From Zobellia barbeyronii (lineage in GTDB: Bacteria; Bacteroidota; Bacteroidia; Flavobacteriales; Flavobacteriaceae), in the NCBI RefSeq assembly GCF_018603515.1, contig NZ_JACATN010000008.1:1-64000 (forward strand): a DNA stretch of 64,000 nucleotides. The letters are read 5' to 3'. The position numbers were made by a program, and so were the translations under genes. The notes below the pieces were generated by a model that was given only the letters and a program-made list of their open reading frames with translations, did no database searches and had not been told where the DNA came from. Shown in pieces: positions 1-12,460 of the stretch. Every line of letters starts with the position of its first letter. Position 1 is the stretch's first letter.

Positions 1-52
1 AAATTTCAAAGGTAAAAAGAATAAATAATCAACCAATATAAAAATCAAAATT

Positions 53-190
53 ATGAAATTAATCAATTTAACAGTTAGCGAATTAACAATCGAGGAGAAA
101 ATGGAAATAGATGGGGGGAAATACAACATGGTTATGGGCATAATATTCTTTCCTGTTTATCAAATCGGTTATCTTTTGGGTAGTTGTTAG
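53..190 (+). CDS. Double-glycine leader peptide A, copy 1 (45 aa)
   Basis: This is a short secreted-peptide precursor. Residues 1-22 form a typical double-glycine leader: L11, E15 and I19 sit at -12, -8 and -4 from the G21-G22 cleavage site. Cleavage would leave a 23-residue hydrophobic core starting K-Y-N-M and ending G-S-C, with a GxxxG motif at G39-G43. The natural processor is the C39-ABC exporter encoded at 3305-5461. The only Ser and Cys in the core are adjacent (S44, C45), so a lanthionine ring is not possible. An unmodified bacteriocin-like peptide paired with B fits better. No family is recognised; the function is inferred from architecture and context. Confidence 0.75.
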   Translation: MKLINLTVSELTIEEKMEIDGGKYNMVMGIIFFPVYQIGYLLGSC

Positions 191-234
191 TCAAAAAATT
201 AAAATAATTATAGATAAACTTTAAAACAAACATT

Positions 235-375
235 ATGGAAACCTATAACGAAAACAAACTAAGAACAATAGATCAGCAAGATGCACGAAATATCAACGGT
301 GGCGATTTCGGAATCAGCATTTTAATTGTTGTGTGCGGATTTGCACTTATGGCAGGATATCGCGACGCCAGATAA
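235..375 (+). CDS. Double-glycine leader peptide B, copy 1 (46 aa)
   Basis: This is the second precursor of the pair, 44 bp downstream of peptide A. Its leader ends N-G-G at residue 23, with I20 at -4 and I12 at -12. The 23-residue core begins D-F-G-I-S, is strongly hydrophobic, and ends in the polar hexapeptide G-Y-R-D-A-R. Core A and core B have the same length. The core holds S28 and C34, which could in principle form one lanthionine ring if the LanB encoded at 6084-9116 acts on it. It also has an AxxxG motif (A37-G41). Export by the C39 ABC transporter is inferred. Confidence 0.75.
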   Translation: METYNENKLRTIDQQDARNINGGDFGISILIVVCGFALMAGYRDAR

Positions 376-457
376 AAGGCTATTGTCAAATTTAAAGAGA
401 GATAATAAATTTCAAAGGTAAAAGAATAAATAATCAACCAATATAAAAATCAAAATT

Positions 458-595
458 ATGAAATTAATCAATTTAACAGTTAGCGAATTAACAATCGAGG
501 AGAAAATGGAAATAGATGGGGGGAAATACAATCATGTTATGGGCATAATATTCTTTCCTGTTTATCAAATCGGTTATCTTTTGGGTAGTTGTTAG
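458..595 (+). CDS. Double-glycine leader peptide A, copy 2 (45 aa)
   Basis: This is a duplicate of the gene at 53-190. The protein is identical except at residue 26, which is His instead of Met and lies four residues after the G-G cleavage site. The leader, the GxxxG motif and the terminal G-S-C are unchanged. The 5' untranslated stretch is also copied, so it is probably expressed in the same way as copy 1. Confidence 0.75.
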   Translation: MKLINLTVSELTIEEKMEIDGGKYNHVMGIIFFPVYQIGYLLGSC

Positions 596-639
596 TCAAA
601 AAATTAAAATAATTATAGATAAACTTTAAAACAAATATT

Positions 640-783
640 ATGGAAACCTATAACGAAAACAAACTAAGAACAATAGACCAGCAAGATGCACGAAATATCA
701 ACGGTGGCGATTTCGGAATCAGCATTTTAATTGCTTTGTGCGGATTTGCTCTCATGGCAGGATATACCGATGCTCGAAGTTAA
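640..783 (+). CDS. Double-glycine leader peptide B, copy 2 (47 aa)
   Basis: This is a duplicate of the gene at 235-375. The 23-residue leader is identical in protein sequence. The core differs at V32A, V33L and R43T, and has one extra C-terminal Ser, so it ends G-Y-T-D-A-R-S. All amino-acid changes fall in the core and none in the leader. This suggests that leader recognition by the exporter is constrained while the released peptide varies. Confidence 0.75.
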   Translation: METYNENKLRTIDQQDARNINGGDFGISILIALCGFALMAGYTDARS

Positions 784-798
784 TTGAAATTTTATATT

Positions 799-891
799 AT
801 GAGTAAAAAAAATAAAAGAAACTTCGTTATGATGATTATGGCCGTAATTATTTTCTTAGGTCTATATCTAGGATACGTTGATGCTAGATGA
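799..891 (+). CDS. Leaderless mini-peptide sharing the G-Y-x-D-A-R end (30 aa)
   Basis: This ORF starts 15 bp after peptide B copy 2. It lacks a double-glycine leader. It begins with a basic segment (M-S-K-K-N-K-R-N), continues as one hydrophobic helix, and ends G-Y-V-D-A-R, the same closing motif as the two B peptides. It may be a truncated third B gene, an immunity-type membrane peptide or a leaderless product. The shared terminus makes chance unlikely, but no family is recognised. Confidence 0.55.
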   Translation: MSKKNKRNFVMMIMAVIIFLGLYLGYVDAR

Positions 892-973
892 AGTATTTGA
901 TTACAATTGCTCTAAGTTTAATAACTTTTAGAAGATGAGCATTGTATATGATATACACTTTGAAGTAATTAAA

Positions 974-1010
974 AACAGGGAATGGCGATAGTTATCTATT
1001 CCCAGTTTTA
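974..1010 (+). terminator. Probable terminator of the peptide gene cluster
   Basis: An inverted repeat, aacagggaat / attcccagtt with one internal mismatch, has a 14-nt loop and is followed by TTTT. It lies about 80 bp after the last mini-ORF and would end the peptide transcript before the insertion-sequence debris. Confidence 0.45.
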
Positions 1011-1019
1011 CTGTGGTAG

Positions 1020-1129
1020 TGTCCAATAAACTGTGTAAATATAAAATAGGCGGGTTTTAAAACCCGCCTATTTTATATTTACACAGTTTTCTTATGGAAG
1101 ATTTAAAGAAACAATTTTTGAACAGTTGA
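1020..1129 (+). mobile_element. Possible left-end remnant of an IS256-like element
   Basis: The stretch beginning TGTCCAATAAACTGTG looks like an insertion-sequence terminal repeat. After the palindrome, an ATG at 1094 opens an 11-codon ORF (M-E-D-L-K-K-Q-F-L-N-S, stop at 1127). It resembles the usual start of an IS256-family transposase but stops at once. Family assignment is from memory of similar termini and is tentative. No right end is seen. Confidence 0.3.
1028..1089. repeat. 62-bp perfect palindrome
   Basis: Bases 1028-1058 are the exact reverse complement of 1059-1089, with no spacer. The GC-rich centre (aggcgggtttt / aaaacccgcct) is a terminator-like hairpin. The AT-rich outer arms (ctgtgtaaatat / atatttacacag) look like insertion-sequence ends. 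It may insulate the exporter genes from the upstream peptide genes. Confidence 0.85.
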
Positions 1130-1142
1130 CCTCCTCCCATAT

Positions 1143-1436
1143 TTAGGTACTGGTCATAACTAGAAAATCCGGGCTATTTTCATTCTTTTCGATATACTCG
1201 TTGGGGGACATGTTCCCCAACGAGCTGTGCGGTCTAAATCCATTATAATCTTCCCTCCAAATATCGAACTTTTTCTGTGCATCTTCCAAAGAAAAGAACC
1301 AATTGGCATTCAAGCATTCGTCCCTGAACGAACCATTGAAGCTTTCGATAAATGGGTTATCGGTAGGTTTTCCAGGTCTTGAGAAGTCAAGTCCTACATT
1401 GTTTATAGTTTCATAATAAATTCTATTAATTGAATC
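1143..1436 (-). pseudogene. IS3-family transposase (OrfB), C-terminal remnant
   Basis: On the minus strand an open frame of about 98 codons reads through the classic C-terminal end of an IS3-type DDE transposase. It contains [20 protein letters not shown], where E is the third catalytic residue. This is followed by F-R-D-E-C-L-N, W-R-E-D-Y-N, R-P-H-S-S-L-G and S-P-N-E-Y, with a stop at 1143. There is no start, no OrfA and no N-terminal catalytic core, so the gene is dead. The upstream edge near 1436 is approximate. It lies between the peptide genes and the exporter cassette and may have separated them. Confidence 0.85.
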
Positions 1437-1605
1437 ATTAGTAGCTTTATTTTTTTTGTGAATGCGAAAGTACTTCAGATCACCCCATTTTTATAAATAC
1501 GGGGTGATTTCATTTGTTCGATACTGAATGAATGTCTTTAATTTACCATAATAAAAAATGAATGAAAGGAAGTACCCACTAATTAATCACTAAAAAACTA
1601 TTCTT

Positions 1606-2178
1606 ATGATTTTAATTAAAAAGAGCATTAATTTAAATAATCAACAAATCGAGTTGAATGCATATTTGGAAAAAGACTTTTCTGTAACTGTTGTTAATCA
1701 GAAACGGAAAATACTTTTTTTGAAAGAAATAGCAAAGTCTTACGTAGTAGATGAGCAAGAAAGAAAACTGATTGCTATTCCTGATGCAATGGCAAAATTA
1801 AAGCCCTTAAAAGATGAACTGGGTGAGGTCTGGCTTGATAAAATATGTAAAGATTCTTCATTATTTAGAGAACAATCATATTATATAGCCAATAATTGTA
1901 TTAATTCTTCTTTGGAATTAACAGGCGAAGTAGCAATTTGTGTTGATGATCGATTAAGGAGCACAGTAAATTATACGCAAAATTTGTCCGAGAGTAATGA
2001 ACGACTTTTTGAATTAGAGTTGGCTGAAAATGAAACACTTTCCTATTGTAAAACTATTCTTAGAATTAATGGTCAAAAAGTGATTTCTGAAATGGAGGTT
2101 ACTTCAATGGAAGATGCAATTATGCCCCAGCAATTCAGAGATTTCTTAAATTATACAGTTAGCGCCAAAGCGGCCTAA
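1606..2178 (+). CDS. Unknown 190-aa protein, first gene of the exporter cassette
   Basis: The protein is soluble, with no signal peptide, membrane segment or motif that I recognise. It is rich in Glu, Leu and Lys and contains four cysteines (C81, C98, C112, C147). It lies 28 bp upstream of the HlyD-type adaptor and on the same strand as the adaptor, exporter, acidic peptide and Cys-rich protein. A role in peptide maturation, chaperoning or immunity is therefore plausible, but this rests on context only. The start is a clear ATG. There is no obvious promoter in the 169 bp separating it from the insertion-sequence remnant. Confidence 0.7.
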   Translation: MILIKKSINLNNQQIELNAYLEKDFSVTVVNQKRKILFLKEIAKSYVVDEQERKLIAIPDAMAKLKPLKDELGEVWLDKICKDSSLFREQSYYIANNCINSSLELTGEVAICVDDRLRSTVNYTQNLSESNERLFELELAENETLSYCKTILRINGQKVISEMEVTSMEDAIMPQQFRDFLNYTVSAKAA

Positions 2179-2206
2179 GACCAAGCTTAATTAAAACAAA
2201 TAAACT

Positions 2207-3283
2207 ATGCGTATTACATATGTAAGTACCCTGGCATTTTTAGTGCTGGTTTTTATCGCTAGCTTTTTTATCAAAGTTAACGTGACCACCCAGAGCCGTT
2301 CTGTAGTACGAAGTTCCGGTGAAAATACCCAATTGGTTTCAGTAGTTAGTGGTAGAATTACTTTTATAGATCTTGAGAATAATCAAGTGGTAAAAAGAGG
2401 TGATACCTTACTATTGGTAGAAAGCGATAACCTTAATCTTCAAAATCGTTTAAAAGAAGAGCTACTCGAAAATTATTTGTCTCAGCTATCCGATTTACAA
2501 AAATTGGCTACGGGTCAGGTAACAAAATTTAGCCAATTAGAAACTGGGATTTACCAAAAACAGTTTATTAGCTTTCAAGAACAATTACGAGAACTACGAT
2601 TAAAGGTGGGCCAAGCTGAAACGGTATATCTACGGTATAAAGAACTTTTTGAAACTGGGGTGATTGCGGCAGTTGAGTTCGATAATTATAATAGTAGTTG
2701 GGTTAATGCCAAAGCTTCACTAAACAGTTTTAGAAATCAACAAATTAGCTCTTGGCAAGCAGAGAACCGAAGTCTGGAAGACCTAATAACCAATACGACT
2801 TCTGAAAAACAGCAAATCCTTGAAGAAAAAGAAAAGTATGCCATCATTGCACCTATAAATGGTACGGTGATGAATTATAGCGGTTTACGAGAACAGAGTT
2901 TCTTGTCGGCAGGGCAACAAATAACAGAAATATCTCCTGATGATAATCTTGTAATAGAATCTTATGTCTTGCCAAAAGATATTGGTTTTATAAAAGAAGA
3001 CCAAGATGTGAAGCTACAGATGGATGCCTACAACTATAACCAATGGGGTTTAGCTACAGGAAAGGTCATTCAGATTGACCGGAACATTACCATTAGCGAT
3101 CAAATGTCCTATTTCAGGGTTTTAAGTAGTATAAATCAAAGCTATCTTGAGCTAAAGAACGGTTATAAAGGAGAAATCAAAAAAGGAATGACCCTTACCG
3201 CAAGGTTTAAGCTTACTGAAAGAACCATATTTCAATTATTGTACGATGGCGTAGACGATTGGATGAACCCGAAACGAAATTAA
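2207..3283 (+). CDS. HlyD-family secretion adaptor (periplasmic membrane fusion protein)
   Basis: This is the adaptor subunit of a type I peptide-export system. It links the inner-membrane ABC exporter encoded next to it to an outer-membrane TolC-like channel. It has one N-terminal membrane segment (about residues 5-23), then a split lipoyl-like domain (about 35-75 and 215-245) around a long coiled coil (about 80-210), and a C-terminal beta-barrel region. The length of 358 aa is normal for bacteriocin-type HlyD proteins in Bacteroidota. It lies 21 bp upstream of the C39 ABC gene, which fixes its partner. No dedicated outer-membrane channel gene is nearby; the TolC encoded at 37555 belongs to an RND operon. 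Confidence 0.9.
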   Translation: MRITYVSTLAFLVLVFIASFFIKVNVTTQSRSVVRSSGENTQLVSVVSGRITFIDLENNQVVKRGDTLLLVESDNLNLQNRLKEELLENYLSQLSDLQKLATGQVTKFSQLETGIYQKQFISFQEQLRELRLKVGQAETVYLRYKELFETGVIAAVEFDNYNSSWVNAKASLNSFRNQQISSWQAENRSLEDLITNTTSEKQQILEEKEKYAIIAPINGTVMNYSGLREQSFLSAGQQITEISPDDNLVIESYVLPKDIGFIKEDQDVKLQMDAYNYNQWGLATGKVIQIDRNITISDQMSYFRVLSSINQSYLELKNGYKGEIKKGMTLTARFKLTERTIFQLLYDGVDDWMNPKRN

Positions 3284-3304
3284 TAACCCTCTAAGATCAA
3301 AAGA

Positions 3305-5461
3305 ATGAGCATAAAAGTAAAACAGCACGATATTAGAGATTGTGGGGCGGCTTGTCTGGCATCTATATCTTCATACTATAATTTAAAAATACCTATTGCC
3401 CGCATACGGCAAATGGCACATACCGATAAGAGAGGAACAAATGTCTTGGGTCTTATTAAAGGGGCAGAAACCTTAGGTTTTGATGCAAAGGGGGTAAGAG
3501 GAGCCTTAGATGCTCTGCCTAATATACCATTACCAGCAATAGCCCATATTATCGTAAACGAAAATCTACATCATTTTGTAGTTATTTATAAAGTGACCGA
3601 TAAATATGTAGAGGTAATGGATCCTGGCCGAGGTAAAATGGAGAAATATACCCTTGATGACTGGGAAAAAACATGGACAGGTGTTTTGGTACTTATGCAA
3701 CCGAACAATAATTTTGAGGCTAGAGATGAGAAAGTGAGTATGTTGTCCCGTTTTTGGACATTGGTTAATCCTCATAAATCTATTCTTTTTGAGGCGTTGT
3801 TCGGAGCTGTTATTTATACTTTATTAGGGTTATCTACGTCTATTTACATTGAAAAAATTACGGATTATGTGTTGGTGGATGGTAATACCAATCTATTAAA
3901 CCTTATGAGTATTATAATGATACTTTTATTGGTTTTCCAAATATTCATAGGGAGTGTACAGAAGATTTTTGTTCTTCGTACGGGTCAGAAAATAGATTCT
4001 CAGCTTATTCTGGGCTATTACAAGCATCTACTGAAGTTGCCGCAACGCTTTTTTGATACGATGAAGGTTGGTGAAATAACCTCAAGAATTGGCGATGCCG
4101 TTAAGATTAGGGCTTTTGTAAACGATGCTTCCATTACCCTATTTGTAAACATTTTTATTGTAATATTTTCTTTCGCATTAATGTATTCCTATTACTGGAA
4201 ATTGGCGTTGATTATCACCATGATTATTCCACTTTATTTGGGAATATACTTTTTGATGGATCACCTCAACAAGAAGATTGAGCGTAAATTAATGGAAAAT
4301 GCAGCCGATTTAGAGTCCCAGTTGGTAGAATCGCTTAATGCCGTAAAAACCATCAAGCAATTTGGAGTAGAAGATTTTGCAAACTTTAAGACGGAGACTA
4401 GGTTTACCAAGTTGTTGAAGTCTATATATTCATCTGGATTGAATTCTATTTTTAGTGGAAATTCTACTGAGTTTTTATCAAGGTTATTTACTATAGTCTT
4501 ATTATGGTCTGGGTCTTATTTTGTTATAGAACAAGAAATTACGCCAGGAGAACTTCTCTCCTTTTATGCCTTGATAGGTTATTTTACGGGGCCTTTCACT
4601 TCTATTGTAGATATGAACAAGACCATACAGAATGCTATGATTGCTTCTGATCGTCTCTTTGAAATCATGGACCTAGAAAGGGAAGCGGTGGAGAATAAAA
4701 TGGATATTACCGCAGAAGATATTGGGGATATAGCATTACGTAATATTGATTTTAGTTACGGTACACGTGTAGATGTATTTGAAGACTTTAGTATGACGTT
4801 TAAAAAAGGAAAGGTATCAGCAATTGTAGGTGAGAGTGGTTCAGGTAAAACAACCTTAATTTCTTTGCTTCAAAATCTATACCCTATTAAAGGAGGAAAG
4901 ATTACCATGGGTGACTATGATATTGCTCAAATCACCCCTAAAAGTTTACGTGACTTAGTTGCAGTGGTTCCCCAAAAAGTTGACCTTTTCTCTGGTAACG
5001 TAATCGATAATATTGCACTAGGTGACTATGAGCCGGACATCAAAAAAGTAATTAGTATAAGCCAGAAATTGGGCATAACAGAATTCATTCAAACCTTACC
5101 TAATGGTTTTGAAACGCATTTAGGTGAAAACGGGGCAATGTTATCAGGTGGCCAGAGACAACGTATTGCAATTGCCAGAGCACTTTATAAGGAGCCCGAG
5201 GTTTTGGTATTAGATGAAGCAACAGCTTCTTTGGATACTATTTCAGAACAAATGGTACAAGGAACTCTGAGAGCACTAAAAAACCAAGGAAAAACATTAA
5301 TCATTATTGCGCATAGGTTAAGCACAGTAGCTTTTGCCGATGAGATTTTTGTACTTGAGAAAGGAAAATTAATAGAGCAAGGCTCACATAATGAGTTGCT
5401 TAAAAATAAAGATGGGAAATATGCCGATCTATGGAACAAGCAAACTTTAGTAATTGAATAA
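3305..5461 (+). CDS. Peptidase-domain ABC exporter (C39 peptidase + ABC transporter)
   Basis: This bifunctional exporter cleaves double-glycine leaders and exports the released peptide with ATP. Residues 1-130 are a C39 cysteine peptidase: Q7, catalytic C13 in D-C-G-A-A-C, H90 in H-H-F-V-V-I and D106 in D-P-G-R-G. Residues about 160-440 hold the transmembrane domain. Residues about 480-715 hold the ATPase, with Walker A (G-E-S-G-S-G-K-T-T, about 509), the L-S-G-G-Q signature (about 613), Walker B ending L-D-E-A-T-A-S-L-D (about 635) and the switch His (I-I-A-H-R). The length of 718 aa is typical. Substrates are most likely the peptides at 53-783. Confidence 0.95.
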   Translation: MSIKVKQHDIRDCGAACLASISSYYNLKIPIARIRQMAHTDKRGTNVLGLIKGAETLGFDAKGVRGALDALPNIPLPAIAHIIVNENLHHFVVIYKVTDKYVEVMDPGRGKMEKYTLDDWEKTWTGVLVLMQPNNNFEARDEKVSMLSRFWTLVNPHKSILFEALFGAVIYTLLGLSTSIYIEKITDYVLVDGNTNLLNLMSIIMILLLVFQIFIGSVQKIFVLRTGQKIDSQLILGYYKHLLKLPQRFFDTMKVGEITSRIGDAVKIRAFVNDASITLFVNIFIVIFSFALMYSYYWKLALIITMIIPLYLGIYFLMDHLNKKIERKLMENAADLESQLVESLNAVKTIKQFGVEDFANFKTETRFTKLLKSIYSSGLNSIFSGNSTEFLSRLFTIVLLWSGSYFVIEQEITPGELLSFYALIGYFTGPFTSIVDMNKTIQNAMIASDRLFEIMDLEREAVENKMDITAEDIGDIALRNIDFSYGTRVDVFEDFSMTFKKGKVSAIVGESGSGKTTLISLLQNLYPIKGGKITMGDYDIAQITPKSLRDLVAVVPQKVDLFSGNVIDNIALGDYEPDIKKVISISQKLGITEFIQTLPNGFETHLGENGAMLSGGQRQRIAIARALYKEPEVLVLDEATASLDTISEQMVQGTLRALKNQGKTLIIIAHRLSTVAFADEIFVLEKGKLIEQGSHNELLKNKDGKYADLWNKQTLVIE

Positions 5462-5498: not shown

Positions 5499-5618
5499 AT
5501 GAAAAATGAAACCGAATTTGACAACGCGTACTTATTGCCAGGAGAGGAAGGCAACCCAATATGGGACGATCTTCATGAATTTTTTCAAGACCACGATGAT
5601 GAATTCTTAGAGCTGTAG
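5499..5618 (+). CDS. Very acidic 39-aa peptide
   Basis: This small ORF lies between the exporter and the Cys-rich protein. Thirteen of its 39 residues are Asp or Glu and one is Lys. It has no Cys, a single Thr and no double-glycine site. Its start shares the context agaatcATGAAAAA with the next gene, which argues that both are translated. The aromatic-acidic tail (L-H-E-F-F-Q-D-H-D-D-E-F-L-E-L) could bind a partner protein. Possible roles are a small accessory protein or a precursor of an unknown modified peptide. Neither is proven. Confidence 0.55.
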   Translation: MKNETEFDNAYLLPGEEGNPIWDDLHEFFQDHDDEFLEL

Positions 5619-5657: not shown

Positions 5658-6038
5658 ATGAAAAAATTTGATTGTCCTAGTTCTCCTCCAATGCCAAATA
5701 GTAAATTGTTAGGGGTGTTCAACGAAGAAACCAACCGAATGGAAATTTTACCGGAACCTGTTCCAATAGACGAAGATATACGTAAGGAATTAGAGAGGTT
5801 TGGAGATAAAAAAATGAAGACCGTTAGGTTAACCAATACCTGTGCTACTAAAGCATGCGGTCAATGGAATGGTCATAAGTGCACATTAATTGGTGGTATC
5901 CTTGAAAAAATAGAGGAAAAGAAAAGAGAAAAAGGGCTGCAGGATTGCAGTATTAGGCCTACTTGCAGATGGTATGCACAAGAGAAGGAAGAAGCTTGTA
6001 AGGTATGTACTTTGGTGCAATACGATCAGGCTAGTTAA
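5658..6038 (+). CDS. Cys-rich 126-aa protein of the peptide locus
   Basis: The start at 5658 is chosen over an upstream in-frame TTG because it shares its start context with the gene at 5499. The protein has nine Cys: C6, plus eight in the C-terminal half arranged Cx4C, Cx7C, then Cx5C, Cx10C, Cx2C. The surrounding motifs are C-G-Q-W-N-G and C-R-W-Y-A-Q. This spacing suggests a metal or Fe-S site. It resembles small Cys-rich proteins found near peptide-modification genes and often loosely labelled nitrogen-fixation proteins, but that is only a recollection. It ends the exporter cassette, converging on the LanB gene. Confidence 0.75.
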   Translation: MKKFDCPSSPPMPNSKLLGVFNEETNRMEILPEPVPIDEDIRKELERFGDKKMKTVRLTNTCATKACGQWNGHKCTLIGGILEKIEEKKREKGLQDCSIRPTCRWYAQEKEEACKVCTLVQYDQAS

Positions 6039-6083: not shown

Positions 6084-9000
6084 TTATCTATAACTCTTCC
6101 TTTTATAGTATTGGTAAAGAAAGTCATAGACAATTGCTTCTTGTTCACGTTGCTTGGTTATAAACAAACGATTACATAACATGTGAATGTGGCTTCCCAC
6201 AATTTGATGATTTATCCCTTTATTCGTTTTAATATATTCAATAATGCGCGGAAGCACTTTTTCATTTTGTGCCGACCGTTCTTTGACCAACTCAACTAAT
6301 GGGTAGAACCGGTGGTTTTTGTTAGAAAGCTCTAGTATTTCGCAAATATCTTTTTCATTTTCTTTATAAACGGCGTTGACTTTTTTGTTTACAAATTTGT
6401 CTTTCTTGAATTCACTACCAAAGCCATCTTTTAGGCTTTTCATAATAGCTAATTTTTGAGCGTCATTAAGTTGAAAATCATCAAGATAATTGTCTATTGA
6501 TAAAAGAGAGAAAACCCAACGTATTTTTTCTCCTTCATCACCTTCTATCATATTCAAAAAGGCTAAAGTACAATCGCTGTCATTCTGAAATACAGTTTCC
6601 GTCTCTGACATTATTTCAAGACCGTAGCGCTCGAATTCTGGATGATAAGATTCTGTTTGAACTTTCCACACTGTCTTTGAATCTGTGAAAACCTTTATTT
6701 GTTTCTGTACTAGACTAAAAACTTTATGAATTTCTTTGTTTTTTGGAATTTTGAACCGAAGTCTTAAATGGTGGCCTTCTGTATCATTATAGCGTATAAA
6801 GAACCATTTTTCGCAAACCTTATCTTTTTTTAATTTTTCTACTAACGGAATTATAGCATCTTTTAAAACCTGCTCTGCCACAGATGGACCACAGTAGAAT
6901 TTAAAGTAAAGCCAATCAGATTTTGGAGGAAATTCTTTTGCCGGGGTAAAGTCTGTAGCAGCAACGGGAGAGCTTGATATTTCATCTTTACTGCCAAATG
7001 CAATGAATTCATTTGCATAGCCTTTTGTAGCAGATGTATCGGCCATTAAATATTCTTGTAGAATTACCCTCCTTTTATTTTTAATTAAAGAGAGAAATAC
7101 AGAACAACTTAGTTTTATTTTAAAATTAATAACAACCTCGTTGTCTCCTTCAACAAAAACAACTAGGTTGGGTAGTTTTTTATTTCTGACAAAATTTCTC
7201 ACATCATCTTCTGAAGGTCGTTTGTTGGATAGTAGAGCATCTATATCTTCCTTGCTTATATTCCACTGTGCTTTTGATAGAATACAGTTTTTATACTCTA
7301 ACCTTGGCAAAAAAGGAAATGACGCCGCCATTTCTCCCCAATCGAAAGCAAAACCGGAGCTGTACTGATTTTGTATATCGCAAAGGAAATTATATATGGG
7401 TAACGCCATAAAAGAATAATTATGGGCATTTCCTAATCTTGGAATCACCTCTTTCTTATGCTTTTTAGAGTATAGTATAACCTTGTCATGTTTTATTGTT
7501 ATATACAAATCAGTTAAATAGATTTGGTTTTCTTCAGGTAATGAAGATTTTGCCAGATATGGAATTTCATACTCACGTTGAAACTTTCGATGAAGAATAT
7601 TTCCTGTTCTGGCCTCAGGTAAGTGAATGATTTCTGCAATTAATTTATTGGGATGATTTCTTTGTTCAAGTTCACAAATTTCTTTTGAGATACTTAAAAT
7701 GTCATCATGTAAATAACCAAAACGGCCAATTAGATTGTTAGCAGACGGACCTGAAACTGATTTTAGCTCAATTTTTTCTTGTTCAGCTTCTCTAAAAAGA
7801 CTAAAAAGAACTGAAAAACTATCAGGATATATCTGACTATCCTCTTCAAAAGAATTAAGTTCTTTTGGTTTTATTTCAATTGAGGTGGAGTTAGTTTGGT
7901 AAGAGTCGAAAATTTTTTTTAGTAAAAAATCTTCGCGTTCACCATAGTTTATGACTTTGTTCTTTGCAGTATTTTTTGTTAAATGAATTGTGTTTAATAG
8001 GGGAGTTTTTGCTCCTGAAATATTCATGTAATTTATACCTGCATCTGGGTCTAATGTGCCAGAAAGAGGCATCATTTCGTGGCCGTAACGGCGTATATAT
8101 TCGGATTTAAAGTTTTTTAATTTTGCATTTTCATGATGGCTACTTAGCTTATTTAGAGCATGTATGCCATTTTGAAGTGTTTTTAATGTATTGTTATTTA
8201 AAGTGTTGCCTGATAAAGGTTTGTAAGTATCAATTTGAAATAATCTGTTCAGCTCAAGAGTATCTACACTTACTAGTGTTTTTATTTTTTGGAATAACTC
8301 TAAGTAATTGGGGATAGTTGTTGATGACTTCTGAAGATTTTTTAACCCTTGCTTTAAAAATGTAAGATTACTTCTAACAGATTTACCTTTTGGAAAATTA
8401 AAACGAGGTTCTCCAAAAATTTCAATTAAAGAATCTAGATAGTCGTTACCGGTAAGAGTTACATCTAGCTCACTAACCAAAAATTGCGCATCTATGATAC
8501 TTAAAACAAAATCTTCGGCTTCTTCAAATGAGATAGAGTCATCGGTTAATTGTTTGCACAATTCATTAACTGTTATTCCATTTTTGGCAGCTATTAATAT
8601 TTTATCTAAATACTCGTTAAATGCTACTTCTGCTAATCTGTGAAACCTTTTATTGTTGGCATAATAGAATTCAACATATCTAAAATTATCTAATATTTGG
8701 TACAAGGAGTTGTTAGGGTAGTAGCGTAACTTATTCCTTATGTCTGCTTCAGAATTGATTTGGTCATTTATCAATCCCAAAAAAAGCATATCATATCTAA
8801 TATTTTTCTCAAGAGTAGTTTTGTTTAATTCCAAATTGGTATTATCAGAAATGTCAACAAGGCCAACTGAGGCAAATAATCCAAAAGGGGTACATCTATT
8901 GCTGAATCTTGAGTAATATTTGTAAAGAGTTATCAATTGTTTCTCTGTAAGCTCGTCATTAAGTAAGCTTTGGAAATTTGGGGAAGCAATAAAAAGTGCT

Positions 9001-9116
9001 TCCTGTATTTTTGGGTCTACTAATTTCTTCCGAATTTTAACTTCAGTGATTTGATTTTCAGTAGATTCTAGTGGTGTTCTGAGTAAAACTTTTTTAAGAA
9101 AAGAAATATTTTGCAT
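6084..9116 (-). CDS. Full-length LanB-type lantibiotic dehydratase
   Basis: Class I LanB enzymes use glutamyl-tRNA to glutamylate Ser/Thr of a precursor peptide and then eliminate glutamate to give dehydro-amino acids. The N-terminal glutamylation domain carries the hallmark R-C-T-P-F-G-L-F (residues 74-81). The C-terminal elimination domain (from about residue 735) has W-L-Y-F-K-F-Y, then R-Y-N-D-T-E-G-H-H-L-R-L-R-F (about 770-785), and ends with H-I-H-M-L-C-N-R-L (976-984), matching the catalytic His region of NisB. At 1010 aa it is complete rather than split. No LanC cyclase, LanP or LanT of lantibiotic type is in the window. It is transcribed toward the C39 exporter cassette. Its substrate is not evident: B peptides (S28/C34) are candidates and A peptides are poor ones. 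Confidence 0.93.
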   Translation of the reverse strand: MQNISFLKKVLLRTPLESTENQITEVKIRKKLVDPKIQEALFIASPNFQSLLNDELTEKQLITLYKYYSRFSNRCTPFGLFASVGLVDISDNTNLELNKTTLEKNIRYDMLFLGLINDQINSEADIRNKLRYYPNNSLYQILDNFRYVEFYYANNKRFHRLAEVAFNEYLDKILIAAKNGITVNELCKQLTDDSISFEEAEDFVLSIIDAQFLVSELDVTLTGNDYLDSLIEIFGEPRFNFPKGKSVRSNLTFLKQGLKNLQKSSTTIPNYLELFQKIKTLVSVDTLELNRLFQIDTYKPLSGNTLNNNTLKTLQNGIHALNKLSSHHENAKLKNFKSEYIRRYGHEMMPLSGTLDPDAGINYMNISGAKTPLLNTIHLTKNTAKNKVINYGEREDFLLKKIFDSYQTNSTSIEIKPKELNSFEEDSQIYPDSFSVLFSLFREAEQEKIELKSVSGPSANNLIGRFGYLHDDILSISKEICELEQRNHPNKLIAEIIHLPEARTGNILHRKFQREYEIPYLAKSSLPEENQIYLTDLYITIKHDKVILYSKKHKKEVIPRLGNAHNYSFMALPIYNFLCDIQNQYSSGFAFDWGEMAASFPFLPRLEYKNCILSKAQWNISKEDIDALLSNKRPSEDDVRNFVRNKKLPNLVVFVEGDNEVVINFKIKLSCSVFLSLIKNKRRVILQEYLMADTSATKGYANEFIAFGSKDEISSSPVAATDFTPAKEFPPKSDWLYFKFYCGPSVAEQVLKDAIIPLVEKLKKDKVCEKWFFIRYNDTEGHHLRLRFKIPKNKEIHKVFSLVQKQIKVFTDSKTVWKVQTESYHPEFERYGLEIMSETETVFQNDSDCTLAFLNMIEGDEGEKIRWVFSLLSIDNYLDDFQLNDAQKLAIMKSLKDGFGSEFKKDKFVNKKVNAVYKENEKDICEILELSNKNHRFYPLVELVKERSAQNEKVLPRIIEYIKTNKGINHQIVGSHIHMLCNRLFITKQREQEAIVYDFLYQYYKRKSYR

Positions 9117-11389: not shown

Positions 11390-12460
11390 CTATCGTTCTA
11401 ATAATCTTCTGCCATTCTCGTGGTATATCTTTTTCAAAGTCTCATCGCCTAAATCCAGTCCATTAAGAGGCCAATGGTATGAGAAATAATTCCAAGCATA
11501 GAAATGTTCGTCTGCACTTTCAAGGATTCTGAAAGTAGTTTGGTACATATCGGCTTCCATACCCATATCGGTTCCATATACCAACCGGTCTTTATATTTG
11601 TTAAAGAAAGCCTTGGTGCGTCTAGGGACCGGTGCAACCTCTGCGTAACGAGCAGATATATCAGCATATAAATTAGGGTGTTCATCCAGTAGTTTGCCTA
11701 AAATAGCTAGGTCGTGACTGGTATTCGCTAAGTGGCATGCTATAAAGGTGGTCTCCTTATTATTTCTGACTGCGTTTGATAAGGTGGTAAGCAATTCTTC
11801 ATGGGTAAGAACACCTTCTTTTGATGTGTCTAATTTCCAAGTATAGGCATTCATAAGTCCATCGTTCTTTTCATCCATGGGCAAGTACATCCAATAAGGG
11901 TCAGCAAGGTGGACGCTTATAGGCATGCCTAATTCGCCACACTTTTCTAAAAGTGGTTGTAAACGAGGGTCGTCCAAATGAAGACCAGGCGCTATAGATG
12001 GTTTTGAGTAGAAAAGTCCTAAACCTTTATCTCCTAATTCACCTACACCTCTTGCGCCTTTGGCAAAACATCTTTCAAGTTCTTTTACTGCTTTTTTTGA
12101 CCAACCTTTTTCATTGTATTCTGTGTAATCAAAACCACACCAAACCTCAATTTGGTCACCGTATTTGGAATACATATCATAAATACTATCAAATTGTTGG
12201 CCTGTTGAGTACGTGAGGATTATCGATTTCTCAATATTGTTCTCTTTCATAGTGGCAACCCATTCTTCCAATTCTTGTTCGGACTTGGCATCTGGGTGTG
12301 AGTGAAAGTCTATTACTGGATATTTAGCTCTTTTAACCAGGGTTTTTGGGGTGTTGTAAATGCTTTGAGGTCTATAATCTTTTAGAAGTAGGTTCTCTTG
12401 CGCAAATAAACAAGTGGTAAGCAATAGGAGGAGTAGAAGAGGTGGTAATTGTTTTCTCAT
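11390..12460 (-). CDS. Secreted amidohydrolase-family metal-dependent hydrolase
   Basis: This is a TIM-barrel hydrolase of the amidohydrolase-2 type. The start at 12460 is preferred over 12514 because it places a Sec signal peptide (M-R-K-Q-L-P plus a Leu-rich core ending F-A-Q) at the very N-terminus. Metal-site motifs seen are I-D-F-H-S-H-P-D near the start, a mid-protein S-V-H-L-A and I-A-C-H-L-A, and late Y-G-T-D-M-G-M. Its substrate is unknown. The neighbours on either side give no functional hint. Family assignment is firm. Confidence 0.85.
   Translation of the reverse strand: MRKQLPPLLLLLLLTTCLFAQENLLLKDYRPQSIYNTPKTLVKRAKYPVIDFHSHPDAKSEQELEEWVATMKENNIEKSIILTYSTGQQFDSIYDMYSKYGDQIEVWCGFDYTEYNEKGWSKKAVKELERCFAKGARGVGELGDKGLGLFYSKPSIAPGLHLDDPRLQPLLEKCGELGMPISVHLADPYWMYLPMDEKNDGLMNAYTWKLDTSKEGVLTHEELLTTLSNAVRNNKETTFIACHLANTSHDLAILGKLLDEHPNLYADISARYAEVAPVPRRTKAFFNKYKDRLVYGTDMGMEADMYQTTFRILESADEHFYAWNYFSYHWPLNGLDLGDETLKKIYHENGRRLLER

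Follow-up and report, generated by a model that had tools for sequence, protein, structure and literature searches.

A many-peptide double-glycine export locus in Zobellia barbeyronii and a possible case of immunity by toxin mimicry

Here we describe a 64,000-nucleotide stretch of the Zobellia barbeyronii genome (RefSeq assembly GCF_018603515.1, contig NZ_JACATN010000008.1, positions 1 to 64,000; hereafter 'the window'), at the start of which two short peptide precursors, A and B, are encoded side by side in tandem units, upstream of a C39 peptidase-ABC exporter. As judged from sequence, A and B may be members of a many-peptide, class-II-like bacteriocin locus in which the small downstream open reading frame (ORF) C acts as a mimic immunity protein, a reading that we favour while holding it to be somewhat short of probable. 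More tentative still is the generalisation that related loci invite: a recurrent self-protection strategy of Bacteroidota, in which a toxin gene would be followed by a gene for a leaderless inner-membrane protein of 28–46 amino acids (aa), the periplasmic C-terminus of which copies the C-terminus of the toxin and tracks its change, and which would circulate as orphans guarding against the toxins of other species. The A/B units and ORF C are arranged as follows:

53–190, forward strand: precursor A, copy 1 (A1), 45 aa; leader of 22 aa ending in GG, core KYNMVMGIIFFPVYQIGYLLGSC of 23 residues
235–375, forward strand: precursor B, copy 1 (B1), 46 aa; leader of 23 aa ending in GG, core DFGISILIVVCGFALMAGYRDAR of 23 residues
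458–595, forward strand: precursor A, copy 2 (A2), 45 aa; 22-residue leader ending in GG, 23-residue core
640–783, forward strand: precursor B, copy 2 (B2), 47 aa; 23-residue leader, core of 24 residues owing to an extra Ser
799–891, forward strand: ORF C, leaderless 30-aa peptide with a single membrane helix, core-B look-alike and proposed immunity mimic

An earlier note on this DNA had described adjacent A and B precursors with 22–23-residue double-glycine leaders and hydrophobic cores, duplicated as a unit; it missed ORF C (799–891). The precursors are present as described (core length 23 aa, 24 in B2, with one Cys per core in both A and B), and the units at 53–375 and 458–783 are indeed in tandem; the number of units is, however, at least three rather than two. 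Base 1 of the window is base 1 of contig C36 of the genome (G000, 4.98 Mb in 37 contigs), and a third unit, A0/B0, lies within the final 350 bases of contig C11; this contig terminates within the repeat, at a break in the assembly. The three units align closely, with both ORFs intact and side by side in each. Since the entire locus lies within one contig in the sister species G004 (same genus, two contigs), we place the array parts on C11 and C36 together, and the uninterrupted G004 region suggests that the end of C11 adjoins the start of C36. Further copies may be collapsed in the gap between the two contigs. Between copies 0 and 2, synonymous differences outnumber non-synonymous ones both in B (7 versus 1) and in A (3 versus 1). 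Among 225 small ORFs at window positions 12001–64000, the top score against the leader profile was 3.7; the leaders from which the profile was built score 22.7–35.9, which is no independent test of it.

The search for extra copies before base 1, which the earlier note had proposed, yielded far more than A0/B0. On C11, A0 is preceded by 11 ORFs that start with ATG and encode different cores behind a leader of the double-glycine type (AG for GG in one of them), and by one additional precursor-like ORF without ATG. Counting A and B, the array comprises 13 different precursors split over two contigs, and the A/B units are its distal end. The array lies between a TPR-AraC regulator (HTH_18 and TPR domains) and the HlyD/C39-ABC exporter; beside the regulator, on the opposite strand, is a TolC-like gene that matches genes annotated 'TolC family' in the related loci L051 and L052 (26% and 30%).

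Comparison with G004 indicates which parts of the locus are stable. The exporter and HlyD proteins are 98% identical between the two species, the regulator 70% and an uncharacterised 190-aa protein (u190) 54%. G004 has seven of the array peptides and a shortened form of an eighth. For the seven shared peptides, pooled non-synonymous (dN) and synonymous (dS) divergence is 0.055 and 0.413 for the cores and 0.054 and 0.352 for the leaders, which points to purifying selection on both. The locus looks vertically inherited because dS over much of it resembles that of the flanking housekeeping genes (0.29 and 0.41), with low-dS patches in a helix-turn-helix (HTH) protein (0.045), two peptides (0.06 and 0.09) and the dehydratase LanB (0.15). 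Neither A nor B is present at the G004 locus, near-identical exporter or not: at their position G004 carries a hydrophobic peptide in two copies and another, EWWC, in four. Because other tandemly copied peptides occupy that position, the sequences argue for the changeable distal end of a many-peptide export locus and against a conserved A+B pair; the locus would be a case of one exporter serving a changing peptide set, its distal end differing between sister species.

The homologous A/B pairs that the earlier note had expected in the family were not found. Elsewhere in G004, A gave leader-only matches; B was examined there at the locus only. Among nine genomes of the genus A is confined to its own, the other weak matches being leader-only or chance, and B occurs only in its own genome among the matches listed from 397 family genomes, a listing in which G004 does not feature. 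A collection of 84,980 species held no relative of A or B at the sensitivity of that search. One weak A-like match, in G001, lies inside other large ORFs, in a region that we take to be type VI secretion-like and that holds no peptide array; we treat it as chance.

Could A and B nevertheless be a true class IIb bacteriocin, that is, two peptides that form a membrane pore in equal amounts, with the copies keeping the ratio? We consider this rather unlikely. As in lactococcin G and the plantaricins, which carry GxxxG or GxxxG-like motifs (reviewed in PMC8538875), two different short double-glycine precursors lie side by side with a C39-ABC exporter, and this order is kept with intact ORFs in all three units found. 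The motifs pointed out by the earlier note exist (GYLLG in A, the AxxxG-type ALMAG in B), a single Cys per core makes an inter-peptide disulfide possible, and the G004 locus lacks both A and B, which may have been gained or lost jointly. However, GxxxG appears in 22% of shuffled versions of core A and [GA]xxxG or Gxxx[GA] in 76% of those of core B: the motifs alone are at chance level and do not decide on pairing either way, even though G-x3-G is enriched in the cores of relatives (see below). Against the class IIb model TIGR03949 (cutoff 21.5 bits) A scores only 16 and 14.3 bits, and B gives no match. Tandem copying in G004 also affects single peptides (the two- and four-copy peptides above), and the pair is not kept as a unit in G004, the sole relative found with the locus, an outcome that the earlier note had named as refuting; there is no independent relative in which pairing could be followed. 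Cores of 23 aa and 13 precursors in one array also set the locus apart from the class IIb systems. On these grounds a dedicated two-peptide pair is not supported, A and B being two members of a larger array. ORF C is the only candidate for an adjacent immunity protein and is smaller than the membrane proteins known to confer immunity in class IIb systems; u190 has no Pfam or NCBIfam match.

A broader view of the setting comes from related exporters. A close exporter is present in 31 of the 397 family genomes, own included; the neighbourhoods of the 30 others, some of which end at contig ends, and of two plasmids give 32 loci. From 28 of these we collected 71 double-glycine cores (11 HTH-type or overlong entries excluded), in which G-x3-G is seen 82 times where 38.0 would be expected; G-x6-G is the one other spacing in the range 1 to 7 that shows a rise, and a weak one (z 2.1). 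The excess persists after dereplication to 50 cores (46 versus 20.6 expected, z 6.6, reached by none of 1000 shuffles). Of seven neighbouring ORFs that we scanned, those in L055, L057, L062 and L081 scored above the Pfam cutoff for CPBP/Rce1 and the one in L063 below it; the two from L058 were a DUF3267 protein and a protein without family. CPBP proteins are immunity factors of class II bacteriocins. The G-x3-G enrichment and the CPBP/Rce1 neighbours make a bacteriocin setting likely for the related loci. Together with double-glycine precursors served by a C39 exporter, they also render the bacteriocin role suggested by the earlier note plausible for A and B; a specific, synergistic A+B pair is conjectural.

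The evidence for mimicry starts with ORF C itself. It begins 15 bases downstream of B2, has no leader, and consists of a Lys/Arg-rich N-terminus (MSKKNKR) followed by one membrane helix. Residues 8–30 align without gaps with the full 23-residue core B (8 or 9 identities), the alignment ending in GYVDAR in ORF C and GYTDAR in core B, with scores of 35–39 and a shuffle p of 0.0005–0.0015. The likeness of ORF C to the G004 peptide is weak (score 19, p 0.07–0.09). The G004 equivalent, C4, overlaps the stop of its partner gene and matches that neighbour (score 36, p 0.0005–0.001), its likeness to core B being weak (18–23, p 0.03–0.15).

The same arrangement recurs in L053, L057, L061, L062 and L071. 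We scanned 400 combinations of ORF and core in the vicinity of double-glycine genes: the highest same-locus score was 65, as compared to a mismatched maximum of 31; three of the top rows are themselves double-glycine peptides (L051 11918, L057 4728 and L053 11514, the last reading a leader-like stretch from a non-ATG start). With cores from other genera as the control, an own-locus core was matched at p ≤ 0.05 by 9 of 20 leaderless membrane ORF candidates, and at p ≤ 0.01 by 7 of the 20. A permutation test run with ten filter variants (with or without membrane or charge rules; whole ORF or last 20 residues only) gave z of 4.2–10.5, and in each variant 0 of 1000 permutations attained the observed sum. 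On the look-alike the alignments sit at the C-terminal end; on the core they fall mostly in the C-terminal half. A positively charged start is seen in six of seven aligned look-alikes; charge was demanded by the 20-candidate filter, not by the 400-combination scan. Some ORFs resemble cores found in another genus: L071 has a look-alike of an L061 core (score 58), L135 of an L062 core (47) and L134 of core A of the window (45), the 1% null being 40. Look-alikes without a same-locus partner are expected of immunity genes. In L071 (12804–14177) several leaderless single-helix ORFs lie close together, some of them partnerless, like orphan immunity genes. We discarded L065 2839, a high-scoring candidate that is itself a double-glycine peptide missed by the profile; its removal leaves 12 of 27 candidates scoring high (13 of 28 before), and 5 of these 12 are best matched in their own locus.

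The mechanism that we envisage is as follows. The exporter would cut the precursors at GG, and the short hydrophobic cores would be released through TolC and act on the membranes of close relatives. ORF C, as a leaderless version of B, would keep its Lys/Arg-rich start in the cytoplasm, span the inner membrane of the producer with its helix and expose its B-like C-terminus to the periplasm, where it could either occupy the target of B or join B in dead-end complexes; self-immunity would be the outcome. If the look-alikes are immunity proteins, the toxin partner could be read from the C-terminus of its neighbour, a simple sequence pairing rule that would serve a phylum with poorly mapped peptide weapons, and two genes would suffice to test directly for bacterial immunity by mimicry.

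A number of observations weigh against this bacteriocin-and-mimicry reading. Comparisons that involve copy 1 look neutral (synonymous to non-synonymous: A1–A2 1.2 to 2.8, A0–A1 2.2 to 3.8, B0–B1 1 to 3, B1–B2 6 to 4), and the coding evidence from the A/B copies is mixed. A and B have no relative outside their own genome in the searches run, and in the 19 array cores of G000 and G004 GxxxG is not in excess (3 occurrences against 2.56 expected). Part of the likeness of ORF C is general, since ORF C versus A (p 0.03) and versus C4 (p 0.01–0.02) also yield low p values, and no mimic of core A is seen in the locus itself. Some of the similarity is due to a GYxxGK-like theme common to several mimics and cores, for which the other-genus control should correct. 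We drew up the candidate rules once the first matches had been seen, and candidates at p ≤ 0.05 are found in only 8 of 32 locus-strands. Among the later-fetched L134–L138, L137 has no peptides and the other four have no same-locus pair above the null, their high matches being to cores of other loci. Of the individual cases, L071 13327 is probably a chance match, its core lying at a distance of 1.4 kb, the best core for L073 lay in another locus, and the look-alike at L071 14046 begins with a net negative charge. Finally, ORF C may be a decayed copy.

Taken as a general explanation, namely that all the look-alikes, ORF C included, are decayed duplicates that lack a leader and serve no function, the last point is in our view unlikely. 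ORF C does align with core B from the first core residue, it has no ortholog on which selection could be gauged, and short ORFs arise easily. However, core partner and look-alike are only 46–62% identical in nucleotide sequence, which means that the look-alikes are not recent copies, and the positive starts, the overlap of C4 with the stop of its partner, the recurrence in several genera and the existence of orphan copies all speak against functionless decay.

Known systems resemble the locus in part. The pneumococcal blp locus likewise uses one exporter for a variable set of double-glycine peptides; it is Gram-positive and under two-component control, and its immunity proteins are not known to be toxin look-alikes. 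Double-glycine peptides with C39 exporters have been described in Bacteroidales (PMC10352776). The bacteroidetocins combine double-glycine-leader peptides with an ABC exporter carrying a double-glycine peptidase domain, also in Bacteroidota, but are class IIa-related, with mature peptides of 42 aa, four Cys and, as presented in PMC6671954, no evident immunity protein; A and B, with 23-aa cores and one Cys each, fall outside the bacteroidetocin range (35–50 aa, at least two Cys). The claim of the earlier note that two-peptide bacteriocins are little described in Bacteroidota agrees with the open PubMed Central (PMC) matches listed, among which no title reports one there; double-glycine peptides with C39 exporters are, by contrast, in print for the phylum (PMC10352776, PMC6671954, PMC7268733). 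Caulobacter Cdz, again Gram-negative, comprises two small glycine-zipper proteins and a type I exporter, but the peptides are 84 and 86 aa long and immunity is conferred by CdzI, for which three membrane helices are predicted (PMC5380434). As for mimicry, the words 'mimic' and 'resembl' are absent from the main text of the bacteriocin immunity review PMC8538875, no open PMC paper contains both 'bacteriocin immunity protein' and 'molecular mimicry', and titles and abstract starts among the open PMC matches listed hold nothing like mimic immunity. A parallel, on which we draw as analogy only, exists in eukaryotes, where one gene can yield both a poison and an antidote that resembles it. The genes in question are the wtf poison-antidote genes of fission yeast (PMC6283613, PMC5478261).

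It is very unlikely, to our mind, that the peptides are instead signals sensed by the TPR-transmembrane-AraC regulator, with the weapons, if any, elsewhere. TPR-AraC adjoins the array in both species, and the regulator is more divergent (70%) than the exporter (98%). In genus g195, three TPR-AraC genes lie within each of two arrays (L112 with 24 precursors and L113 with 12). On the other hand, 17 of 20 neighbourhoods of TPR-AraC relatives lack such peptides, and immunity is the better fit for the mimic pattern and the CPBP genes. The 20 had been chosen among the top-ranking matches (a match is present in 68 of 395 genomes); peptides were present in three, all from one genus, and we dropped TPR-AraC as a general marker of peptide arrays. 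The two g195 arrays, 14 kb each and interspersed with the regulator genes, encode Ser/Thr/Cys-rich cores behind LxFxK-type leaders; two precursors from L112 were compared with the class I lanthipeptide leader model, and one scored above the cutoff and the other below.

That A and B are LanB-modified, lanthipeptide-like products is highly improbable: a full-length LanB lies 0.6 kb past the exporter (95% identical in G004), core B has Ser and Cys, and C39 processing of double-glycine precursors with LanB nearby is a trait of Bacteroidetes class I lanthipeptides (PMC7268733), but no LANC_like gene was found in the genome despite the presence of LanB, A and B do not have the LxLxKx5L leader which that paper reports for a number of Bacteroidetes class I precursors, and A1, A2, B1 and B2 give no match to the class I leader model NF038153, to which a divergent precursor on C11 (L003 5544–5714) comes near (19.4 bits, cutoff 22).

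On the exporter side, downstream of ORF C, the window carries:

1035–1082, no strand: long inverted repeat with a count of 20 pairs, resembling a terminator on either strand
1143–1313, reverse strand: ORF, presumably a C-terminal relic of an IS3-type transposase (likeness assumed by us, not from a database search)
1606–2178, forward strand: u190, 190-aa ORF without family; at 54%, the lowest G004 identity of the non-peptide proteins compared
2207–3283, forward strand: HlyD-type periplasmic adaptor (profile search)
3305–5461, forward strand: C39 peptidase-ABC exporter (TIGR01193, Peptidase_C39)
5499–5618, forward strand: 39-aa acidic ORF, one change relative to the G004 copy
5658–6038, forward strand: u126, Cys-rich ORF of 126 aa without family; 98% identity to the G004 protein
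6084–9116, reverse strand: full-length LanB-type dehydratase, both domains

The exporter belongs to its assigned family, with 538.7 bits against TIGR01193 (cutoff 523.85) and 128.9 bits against Peptidase_C39 (PF03412). Both it and HlyD, which the earlier note had put next to the peptide genes, are present; the A/B cassette does not abut them but is separated by the inverted repeat, the transposase-like relic and u190, and in G004 about 250 bases separate the last peptide from u190. When used as search anchors, u190 and u126 were found only in their own genome among the matches listed, although both are present in G004, which did not appear there. The predicted structure of u190 (mean predicted local distance difference test score, pLDDT, 32.8) was discarded. 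Given its divergence next to a 98% identical exporter, u190 is perhaps a peptide-specific partner.

Near the array on C11 there is a 110-aa HTH protein (L003 8590–8922), followed, before the third peptide, by three palindromes GTCTCA-N5-TGAGAC (L003 8995, 9102 and 9202). This motif occurs exactly three times in the G000 genome and three times in G004, always at the array locus, and is absent from genomes G001, G003 and G005; the palindromes are perhaps operators of the array. HTH proteins of about 90–125 aa recur by related exporters, with 25 homologues in 24 of 37 loci (L003, L051, L053, L054, L056–L059, L061–L066, L068–L070, L073, L074, L078, L079, L081, L082, L134 and L136). By a loose script count 21 of the 25 have G[GAS] near the C-terminus; by eye, 18 of the 25 carry a true GG with leader-like surroundings and, behind it, a tail of some 12–35 residues, as if the DNA-binding domain took the role of a leader or the tail were a read-out of the C39 peptidase.

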